A stretch of DNA of 64,000 nt from Trichococcus palustris (lineage in GTDB: Bacteria > Bacillota > Bacilli > Lactobacillales > Aerococcaceae): the NCBI RefSeq assembly GCF_900114465.1, contig NZ_FOTD01000004.1, forward strand, positions 1 through 64,000, read 5' to 3'. Made by a program: the position numbers and the translations under genes. Below the pieces are notes generated by a model, which searched no databases, was not told the DNA's origin, and saw nothing but the letters and a program-made list of their open reading frames with translations. Below are positions 39,448 to 42,085 of the stretch, in pieces; within the stretch, counting starts at the first letter, position 1, and every line of letters starts with the position of its first letter.

Positions 39448-39618
39448 TTATCCTATTAACCAAATGATATTAGGGGAATACTTTGCTGGTGCTTTTGCCA
39501 CTTGTTCATGCTGAATATCCTTGCTGGACAGGTTGGCATCAGTAGTGATTTCCTTTAAAAACAAACTACTGCTACCCATTACTCCTAGAACTATGGACAA
39601 AACAATAAACTTTTTCAT
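39448..39618 (-). CDS. Candidate peptide pheromone precursor (PapR/SHP-like)
   Basis: This 56-codon gene starts at ATG 39618 with AAAGGGG about 10 bases upstream and stops with TAA at 39450-39448. The product has MKK, a hydrophobic stretch FIVLSIVLGVMGSSSLFL (a Sec signal), a polar middle rich in D, E, K and Q, and a short hydrophobic C-terminus KYSPNIIWLIG. That layout matches PapR of the PlcR system, and the tail recalls hydrophobic SHP peptides. It is divergent from, and 116 bases away from, an Rgg/PlcR-type regulator. A perfect -10 TATAAT lies at 39668-39663 with no good -35, as expected for a promoter needing an activator. A role as a signal is inference; a small secreted peptide is directly readable. 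Confidence 0.75.
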   Translation of the reverse strand: MKKFIVLSIVLGVMGSSSLFLKEITTDANLSSKDIQHEQVAKAPAKYSPNIIWLIG

Positions 39619-39662
39619 GATAGCTACCCCTTTTCTGAAAAATATTTTTTCTTGATAATTAC

Positions 39663-39668
39663 ATTATA
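39663..39668 (-). promoter_or_regulatory. -10 of the peptide gene
   Basis: TATAAT on the minus strand, 45 bases before the peptide ATG. No -35 within 16-18 bases. Confidence 0.55.
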
Positions 39669-39686
39669 AAGAAGAGAAATGCAATC

Positions 39687-39711
39687 TGGTATAATTAGTC
39701 GTATAATACTA
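39687..39711 (+). promoter_or_regulatory. Regulator promoter and candidate dyad
   Basis: TGGTATAAT (extended -10, 39687-39695) is followed by a second TATAAT at 39702. TAGT-cg-TATA-at-ACTA (39696-39711) is a partial dyad centred on TATA, placed between the two divergent genes, and is a candidate binding site of the regulator. Confidence 0.45.
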
Positions 39712-39734
39712 TTAAAAAGAAGAAGGTGCAGCCA

Positions 39735-40598
39735 ATGAAAAAAGAGTTCGGAGAAGTTCTTAAAGATATCAGGATAGATAGGGGGTATTCTCAACAGTAT
39801 GTCGCAGAAGGCATTATGGGGCAATCAGCTTACTCAAAAATAGAAAGAAGTGAAATGGAACCTACTTTTCGAAAATGGTTGGCAATCCTGGAAAAACTGA
39901 ATATTTCAGTAGATGAGTTCCGTTACATATTAAACAAAGAAGACTTGACCACAAAAGAAAAGCTAATCAATGAATTTTTCTCCTTGAATTATAATCACCT
40001 TGATGATTTAAAATGGCTTAAAGATGAGATAGTTGCCTACTTAAAGGAAGAGGAAGACTATCTGTTGAGAGACCTTTACTACGCATGTGAAAGCCTGATA
40101 GTTTTAAATGAAACTCAAAACGTAGAAAAAGCACAATTCTTTGCCAAAAAAATTTGGGAACGTATGGAGAAATTTGATAAATGGTATTTATTGGATATCC
40201 GATTAATAAACACCATATTATTTATTTTCCCGATTGATGTAGCCGTGAACATCGGTGAAAGAGTAACCGAACAATTAGTCCCTTACCATAATCTAAAGGA
40301 AGCTGAAATTCCATTGATCAATGTAGATATTAATTTAGCTGTTTTGCTGTTTGAGGATAAAAAATATCATGAAGCACTTTCCTACTTGGAAAAAGCGATT
40401 CCCTTATGCAAGAAATATCAAAAATATATTCAACTAGCACTTGCCTATGCCAGAAAAGGGATCATCTTACAAAAAACAGGGAAAATGGATGAAGGTGCCG
40501 AGCACATCGAGAAGGCATACGCTATATTAAACGCTATCGAAGACAGGAAACTAATAAATGACTTAGAAAAAGAAGTTTCGCATTACATGAGTATGTAA
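39735..40598 (+). CDS. Rgg/PlcR-type (RRNPPA) transcriptional regulator
   Basis: The 287-residue protein has an N-terminal Xre-type helix-turn-helix (KKEFGEVLKDIRIDRGYSQQ, QSAYSKIERSEMEPTFRKW) and then an all-helical TPR-like region. Its last part, ALSYLEKAIPLCKKYQKYIQ and YARKGIILQKTGKMDEGAEH, has clear TPR character. Length and layout fit Rgg, PlcR and MutR, which bind imported peptides in the TPR groove. ATG 39735 has AAGAAGG 8 bases before it. The neighbour on the other strand is the candidate pheromone gene. Which genes it controls is not known; the peptide gene itself is the first candidate. Confidence 0.85.
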   Translation: MKKEFGEVLKDIRIDRGYSQQYVAEGIMGQSAYSKIERSEMEPTFRKWLAILEKLNISVDEFRYILNKEDLTTKEKLINEFFSLNYNHLDDLKWLKDEIVAYLKEEEDYLLRDLYYACESLIVLNETQNVEKAQFFAKKIWERMEKFDKWYLLDIRLINTILFIFPIDVAVNIGERVTEQLVPYHNLKEAEIPLINVDINLAVLLFEDKKYHEALSYLEKAIPLCKKYQKYIQLALAYARKGIILQKTGKMDEGAEHIEKAYAILNAIEDRKLINDLEKEVSHYMSM

Positions 40599-41499: not shown

Positions 41500-42085
41500 A
41501 TTCCCGGCGAGCGCGGATGCTCCGACCAAGGAGACGTTCGCCGGGGAACAGAGTCTTCCGGGGTACCCAGCCCCGGCGAGGGGAATGTTAGCCGGGGCAG
41601 ATTTATTTCCGGGCAACCGAACTCCGGCGAAGCCTAGCTGTCCGGAGGTGATATTTTTTTTTGTCTCTTCTCCGGCGAAAGTGCGGTTCACCGGAGAAAC
41701 GCGGCTGCTCCGACCAAGGAGGCGTTCGCCGGGGAACGGAATCTTCCAGGGTACCCAGCTCCGGCGAGGGGAATGTTAGCCGGGGCAGATTTATTTCCGG
41801 GCAACCGAACTCCGGCGAAGCCTCGCTGTCCGGAGGTGATATTTTTTTGGATTCTCTTCTCCGGCGAAAGGGCGGTTCACCGGAGGAGCGCAGCTGCTCC
41901 GACCAAGGAGGCGTTCGCCGTGGAATGGAATCCTTCGGAGTGCACTGCTTCGATGAGCAATCTGTTGGCCGGAGGAGACTCGATTCCGGGCAACCGAACT
42001 CCGGCGAAGCCTAGCTGTCCGGAGGTGATATTTTTTTTGGATTCTCTTCTCCGGCGAAAGCCCGCTTCACCGGAGGAGTGCACAC
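41500..42085. repeat. Family A repeat array, three units near 188 bp
   Basis: 'tccgaccaagga' recurs at 41521, 41709 and 41898. Each unit holds CTCCGGCGAA...TTCACCGGAG hairpins, 'ccgggcaaccgaactccggc' and 'ctgtccggaggtgatatttt'. Orientation is opposite to the arrays at 46.4 and 48.1 kb. Open frames across it are by-products of the repeat. Confidence 0.93.

Follow-up and report, generated by a model that had tools for sequence, protein, structure and literature searches.

Several intracellular peptide-pheromone systems resemble the locus considered here, among them PlcR-PapR of the Bacillus cereus group, in which the PapR precursor has a signal-like N-terminus. Rgg regulators have been assigned to Lactobacillales, mainly Streptococcus, and PlcR regulators, with the pheromone gene immediately downstream, to Bacillales (PMC9765709). 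In Rgg2/Rgg3-SHP2/SHP3 of Streptococcus pyogenes, a regulator built from a helix-turn-helix (HTH) domain and an Rgg C-terminal receptor domain is paired with a divergent small precursor gene, encoding 22-23 amino acids, whose product ends in a hydrophobic signal, and the SHP route runs through PptAB export and Eep in the account of PMC5167397. The same account places comS downstream of comR and gives ComS a tryptophan-containing signal region (DWWRL). RopB responds to the hydrophobic signal of a divergent LCP gene; most LCPs are 8-10 amino acids long and leaderless, and they are reported also in Carnobacteriaceae (PMC10518010). For RstA, an RRNPP regulator of Clostridioides difficile, direct control of flgB transcription has been reported, at a promoter lying 496 bp upstream; its ligand is unknown, and no precursor gene adjoins it (PMC6414698). 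Here we describe a divergent regulator-peptide pair of Trichococcus palustris, a relative of the lactic acid bacteria, located in a stretch of 64,000 nucleotides (positions 1 to 64,000 of contig NZ_FOTD01000004.1, assembly GCF_900114465.1; henceforth the window), which sequence comparison leads us to regard, with good confidence, as a self-sensing Rgg-type intracellular peptide-pheromone circuit.

The original prediction, made from the letters of the window, proposed such a circuit from a 56-codon minus-strand gene with a good ribosome-binding site, a perfect -10 box without a -35 box in front of it, and a 287-residue regulator with HTH and TPR-like parts lying head-to-head with the gene. Each of these elements is present (Table 1): the two open reading frames (ORFs) are divergent and separated by a spacer of 116 bases, and a promoter scan gives no two-hexamer promoter at the TATAAT of the peptide gene. 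The central proposal also holds, as the small ORF is kept at all 12 ortholog loci and its tail recurs over different leaders in five genera. Judging from these comparisons, the product of the small gene is very probably a peptide through which cells signal to each other.

Among the described systems, Rgg2/Rgg3-SHP2/SHP3 shares with this locus the domain plan of the regulator, the divergent small precursor gene and the hydrophobic C-terminal signal. It differs in the length of the precursor, in the tail (D-I-I-I-I-V-G-G in SHP; here I-I-W-L-I-G, which contains a tryptophan but lacks an acidic residue) and in the operator copy that Trichococcus relatives carry at flgB. The precursor is unusually long for an Rgg-type circuit: short Rgg-type precursors have about 20-25 amino acids, compared with 56 here and 22-26 in the related groups g41 and g30 described below. 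ComR-ComS is similar in the predicted fold of the regulator and in the tryptophan of the signal region, but we rejected an assignment to ComS, since the gene here is divergent and its tail has a single tryptophan followed by two hydrophobic residues and glycine, with no WW. Likewise, the divergent gene and hydrophobic signal recall RopB-LCP, an assignment we rejected because the ORF has 56 codons and a ratio of nonsynonymous to synonymous substitution rates (dN/dS) that stays below 0.5 throughout its four segments. PlcR-PapR is alike in predicted fold and unlike in gene order, Pfam class and taxon, the precursor here not being directly downstream. RstA is the nearest precedent we found for an RRNPP protein acting on flgB, although here, unlike in RstA, a candidate signal lies head-to-head with the regulator. 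The RRNPP_Detector survey covered 7,974 complete genomes and chromosomes of Firmicutes; its main text mentions Carnobacteriaceae once, with two gene clusters, and Trichococcus not at all (PMC10075063). Our literature search found no Rgg system of Trichococcus in print; the supplementary tables of the survey lay outside that search and may list Trichococcus pairs. A word search of the main text of a Trichococcus genome paper (PMC6950789) returned no flagell, motil, quorum, Rgg or pheromone.

The regulator, 287 amino acids from its ATG or 290 from a GTG 9 bases upstream, is matched by TPR models and, over their cut-offs, by HTH_3 (PF01381; 43.7 bits) and Rgg_C (PF21259; 42.1 bits against 27), whereas RNPP_C reaches 20.9 bits, below its cut-off of 26.5. 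Because Rgg_C lies over its cut-off, RNPP_C lies below and the gene order is divergent, the class is Rgg-type and not PlcR/PapR, and the PapR-like filing of the pair in the original prediction has to be dropped. An AlphaFold2 (AF2) model built from a 46-row alignment, with a mean predicted local distance difference test (pLDDT) score of 91.5, predicts the RRNPPA receptor fold. Residue N200 (in VDINLAV) is near-invariant and aligns with the asparagine of 'INCLI' in Rgg2 and Rgg3; by analogy it may be the equivalent of the conserved asparagine that anchors the peptide in Rap proteins (PMC11343458). Plasmid and phage collections contain 31 and 3 records, respectively, with relatives of the regulator at 21-31% identity; among the plasmid records are 24 from Listeria, with Rgg/GadR/MutR-like regulators at 26-31%.

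Table 1. Features of the regulator-peptide locus, in coordinates of the window.
Feature	Position	Strand	Remarks
Candidate pheromone precursor gene, 56 amino acids (MKKFIVLSIVLGVMGSSSLFLKEITTDANLSSKDIQHEQVAKAPAKYSPNIIWLIG)	39448..39618	-	12/12 ortholog loci, one with tail lost; dN/dS 0.34 over 11 copies
Predicted signal segment YSPNIIWLIG, putative ends	39451..39480	-	core I-W-[LF]-[IVM]-G common to several genera
EQVAKAPAKYS, possible processing region (putative role)	39475..39507	-	91% mean identity, dN/dS 0.14 within genus
Ribosome-binding site AAGGGG of peptide gene	39627..39632	-	
-10 box TATAAT of peptide promoter, without -35	39663..39668	-	24 bases from operator core in 12/12 loci
Operator-like imperfect palindrome TAGTCGTATAATACTA	39696..39711	.	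12/16 positions symmetric; inside block 39693-39712
-10 box TATAAT of regulator, within operator-like block	39702..39707	+	
Rgg-type regulator of 287 amino acids, with HTH and TPR-like C-terminal domain	39735..40598	+	Pfam, AF2, Foldseek

We followed the pair through 13 Trichococcus genomes, the window's own included. A match to the regulator at E <= 1e-10 occurs in 12 of them and an ortholog (76-100% identity) in 11; the remaining genome, G011, is 51% complete and gave no match. Among named relatives the nearest belong to Trichococcus (T. alkaliphilus, 88% identity), and the own genome (2.93 Mb, 52 contigs) holds a single match at E <= 0.01. A further ortholog locus, L035, is on a contig of a metagenome-assembled genome (MAG) that is named Paludibacteraceae and probably belongs to a Trichococcus; its regulator is 80% and its guaC 97% identical, and an internal TAG interrupts the regulator but leaves an intact peptide gene beside it. 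A small ORF beside orthologous regulators, as the original prediction would have it, is present at 12 of 12 loci, divergent, with its start 111-118 bases from the regulator, kept throughout and preceded in each case by a purine-rich ribosome-binding site. Eleven loci retain a tryptophan-containing tail, W[LF][IM]G in ten and WFIN in one (L002). Across these 11 copies the sole length change is an in-frame 9-base deletion (L010), and, on its substitution pattern, the small ORF evolves as coding DNA. At the twelfth locus (L009, genome G009) the ORF runs into a DDE transposase insertion and the tail is lost; damage to the gene in relatives had been named as a sign against the prediction, and this one loss, in a complete genome, does not overturn it. 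G009 may be a natural signal-negative strain.

The tail extends beyond the genus. Regulators 36-45% identical to that of the window occur in four other genera, with divergent small ORFs that share the tail: ...DIWLIGGW, ...YSPTAIWLIGT and ...PVIWFMGGGG, compared with ...YSPNIIWLIG in the window. A search of the family (76 genomes, E <= 1e-20) found homologs in one other genus only, g17, in five of six genomes; in four of the five loci the divergent ORF starts with ATG and has the tail DIWLIGGW, DAWLIGGV, DVWLIGGL or DIWLIGGW, and in the fifth it starts with TTG and has the tail DVWLIGGE. The search of the order, at E <= 1e-30, gave matches in 62 of 395 genomes. All nine loci of g41 and g30 carry a divergent ORF of 22-26 amino acids (e.g., MKKILKKLVLFLPVIWFMGGGG), and two of five g26 loci a TTG-started ORF, with the tails YSTTGIWLIGTGPT and YSPTAIWLIGT. 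Counted over 87 loci, 40 of them places of further homologs, the pattern W[FLIVM][FLIVM]G within the last 16 residues is found in 27 of 433 small ORFs that are near and divergent versus 2 of 5406 at other positions in these loci, a contrast whose Fisher P of 5e-29 is inflated because the pattern is post hoc and the loci are related. By group, it occurs at 10/12 Trichococcus ortholog loci, 5/5 in g17, 9/9 in g41 and g30 together and 2/5 in g26. Since the leaders look unrelated between groups, the tail is the part that is kept. On a tree of 46 of the 87 regulators, the tail label, given also to L002 and L009, needs 4 changes versus 14.3 after shuffling; L035 was dropped from both alignment and tree for its internal stop. 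A tail-bearing peptide gene lies beside none of 16 loci of paralogous Rgg-like proteins in Trichococcus.

In the spacer, the original prediction had noticed a dyad. Spacer and symmetry are both there, but the symmetry is within chance: an equally good 16-bp dyad occurs in 1324 of 2000 shuffled spacers, and we rejected the dyad as evidence. A repeat search of the spacer returned one pair, at 74%. The surrounding block AATTAGTCGTATAATACTAT shows at most one change across the 12 loci, and its equivalent in g17 is a near-perfect palindrome (e.g., ATATTCATATATGAATATT); an operator is thus credible because the block is conserved and has a second copy elsewhere, not because of its symmetry in the window. 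The block overlies the -10 box of the regulator and lies 38 bases, centre to centre, from that of the peptide gene, a position that fits self-repression combined with control of the peptide promoter.

A copy of this block lies at a second place in five relatives. The 20-mer block at <= 3 mismatches has 17 sites in the 13 genomes, 11 at the pair, five at fliS-flgB (in G002, G005, G006, G008 and G010) and one in G003; this last one, with three mismatches and before a gene read by eye as DtxR-like, we took as chance. The core TAGTNNTATANGACTAWTT at <= 1 mismatch has 19 sites (11 pair, five fliS-flgB, three other), and its reversal one; the three others, each of which has one mismatch and falls within an open frame longer than 100 codons, were likewise taken as chance. 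At zero mismatches all 13 matches fall in the pair spacer (eight) or at fliS-flgB (five). The distance from core to TATAAT is 24 bases in all 17 cases, that is, in 12 pair spacers and five fliS-flgB copies, where the TATAAT is directed at flgB throughout. The opposite -10 box is broken in two of the five copies (TATAGG, TATAGT), with the palindrome halves kept, and the region between copy and flgB spans 244 to 753 bases. Local alignment of the pair spacer with the fliS-flgB spacer scores 67-80 in the five relatives; shuffle maxima (200 shuffles each) are 28-35. FliS was found in six of the 13 genomes, namely the five with the copy and the window's own. FliS and the FlgB rod-protein family are Pfam-confirmed in the own genome and one relative; for the other four relatives FlgB was read by eye and FliS comes from the search of the 13 genomes. 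The best reading of these sequences is that, in five relatives, a copy of the circuit's spacer ties the flagellar operon to the circuit. On sequence grounds this link is strong in those five; in the window's own genome it is not seen.

Transposase remnants resembling the start of DDE_Tnp_1_4 adjoin the copied promoter in L106, L108, L109 and L110 (by eye), and a protein of another genome similar to the remnant is assigned to PF13701. A mobile element may have helped promoter capture at flgB. A scan of the fliS-flgB leader with Rfam gave no known RNA element except pieces of a group II intron, in L108.

Operator sites were also found in other genera. By our own tally of overlapping rows, g17 has 15 distinct sites in five of six genomes, five of them at the regulator itself, and the reversed control has none. 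Extra copies occur in four of the five g17 genomes having the regulator; the sixth genome, G065, has neither regulator nor sites. In g41 and g30, no extra targets appear at <= 3 mismatches: all nine genomes have only the self site, and the reversed control has one. Within g17-type sites, those in G062 (loci L155, L165, L172 and L180) and G064 (L157) form a probable regulon of a related regulator, as read from their sequences. Palindromes ATAGTCATATATGACTATT of G062 lie before proteins that look secreted and belong to no Pfam family (L155, L165, L172), and a VanZ-like gene is near an operator site in the same genome, with a similar locus in G064 (L157) recognised by eye.

A number of observations weigh against this interpretation and have to be set beside it. 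At the level of class, NCBIfam TIGR01716 scores 33.3 bits on the regulator, under its cut-off of 36.9, and the single-sequence ranking places PlcR (E 4.2e-6) second, just above Rgg3 (5.8e-6). The pair is not universal: G003, 99% complete, lacks an ortholog and has only paralogs of 35% identity and less, and the regulator of G009 is intact although the insertion removed the peptide tail. Such a tail is missing from three of the five g26 loci and, among the 40 loci of further homologs, from 39. The tail pattern was written after viewing the window, g17, g41 and g30, and the loci are related, amounting to about four independent lineages. Within Trichococcus, the C-terminal residues are, contrary to what had been anticipated, not the best-kept part of the peptide: residues 49-56 have 69% identity and a dN/dS of 0.46, compared with the 91% and 0.14 of residues 38-48 (EQVAKAPxKYS), while residues 1-20 (66%, 0.34) and 21-37 (65%, 0.42) complete the precursor. 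The anticipation is borne out between genera, where the core is shared over four others, and fails within the genus, so conservation does not fix the ends of the mature peptide. As to the flagellar link, the reversed 20-mer at <= 3 mismatches still gives 8 sites against the 17; in the own genome the spacer alignment scores 25 with a null maximum of 27, and a 19-kb stretch of its flagellar cluster has no operator site under 6 mismatches. Because the own genome lacks the fliS-flgB copy, only the self-loop is seen for this organism.

Some of these points could be read in other ways. The small gene might encode a small secreted or membrane peptide (a toxin, bacteriocin or leader peptide, for instance) that is under the control of the regulator and is no signal; its hydrophobic N-terminus, its length beyond that of SHP precursors and the survival of the G009 regulator without the peptide tail would suit such a product. 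Yet the I-W-x-x-G tail is kept while leaders differ among genera, the whole precursor in g41 and g30 has the size of an SHP, and a scan of the neighbours revealed no gene for immunity or processing; in nine named contig stretches, guaC lies upstream (9/9) and tRNA-Arg downstream (6/9). We therefore regard a non-signal peptide as very unlikely. That the pair belongs to the PlcR/PapR type is highly improbable. Such a type could account for the long, signal-like N-terminus of the precursor, as in PapR, and for the best single Foldseek match of the predicted regulator, PlcR with PapR7 and DNA, ahead of Lmo0325, ComR, NrpR and Rgg2 among the best PDB matches (Rgg3 was also matched). The profile ranking reverses this order, with Lmo0325, Rgg3 (E 3e-21), NrpR and Rgg2 (9e-19) before PlcR (6e-15), and the Pfam scores, the taxon and the gene order given above point the same way.

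For the DNA sites, too, there are alternatives to operator function. The spacer block could be a promoter element for RNA polymerase only, with the regulator binding elsewhere or sensing something else, which would be compatible with the -10 box inside the block and with a dyad that alone is not significant. This is distinctly unlikely in view of the near-perfect palindrome in g17, where extra copies accompany the regulator and are missing from the genome without it, and of the two flgB copies that keep the palindrome halves but not the intervening -10 box. Alternatively, the pair could be real and the fliS-flgB copies functionless relics of promoter transposition, as the transposase-like remnants beside four of five copies and the variable distance to flgB might suggest. 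Palindrome halves and a flgB-directed TATAAT at constant distance in all five copies, the decay of the opposite -10 box in two, and the presence of the copy at the same place in five of the six genomes with FliS argue for function, and we consider relics unlikely.

Taking the pair as a self-sensing Rgg-type circuit, we propose that the 56-amino-acid precursor would be transcribed from the promoter with a -10 but no -35 box, exported and then cut. A fragment from its C-terminus, about 7-11 residues long with ...IIWLIG at the end, would be taken back by oligopeptide permease and bind the TPR domain of the divergent regulator. On the palindrome-like spacer block, the regulator would cover its own -10 box and repress itself; sitting upstream of the peptide -10 box, it could in its peptide-bound form activate that promoter or release its repression, giving a positive feedback loop. 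In the five relatives with flagellar genes and the spacer copy directed at flgB, the same signal would also control the flagellar operon. The own genome encodes one M50 protease, four OppA-type (SBP_bac_5) binding proteins and an EcsB/PptB-like protein, EcsB being what we take as the PptB-like part; by analogy, an SHP-like route with PptAB export and Eep may be open here, although these families are widespread and M50, EcsB and OppA prove little.

Around the pair, no adjacent target operon for the regulator was seen in the window; guaC is convergent, and tRNA-Arg follows. A 189-base tandem repeat in three copies lies between two minus-strand genes at 41512-42075. Ten Trichococcus genomes have a second Rgg-like protein (35-36% identity, L012-L021) beside a HAD-like gene (by eye), with no tail-bearing peptide gene next to it and no match in the own genome.

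More broadly, the pair may represent a distinct Rgg branch of Carnobacteriaceae and neighbours, in which a core I-W-[LF]-[IVM]-G sits on exchangeable leaders (SHP-like of 22-26, about 39-47, or 56 amino acids), with possible cross-talk between genera and with flgB of Trichococcus captured through a copy of the rgg-peptide spacer; we put this forward tentatively, at somewhat less than an even chance. New are the long precursor, the tryptophan-core tail over exchangeable leaders and the second promoter copy at flgB in relatives, and the analysis supplies a candidate signal, receptor and operator for a genus in which we found no Rgg system in print. The exchangeable leaders would offer a case for studying how a pheromone can switch its path of export and processing and yet keep the core of its signal. 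The flgB copies suggest that the signal can control swimming in some relatives, and a peptide pheromone predicted to act directly on a flagellar operon would be unusual. If this is true, swimming in Trichococcus would depend on cell density, and a candidate for the ligand would already be known.
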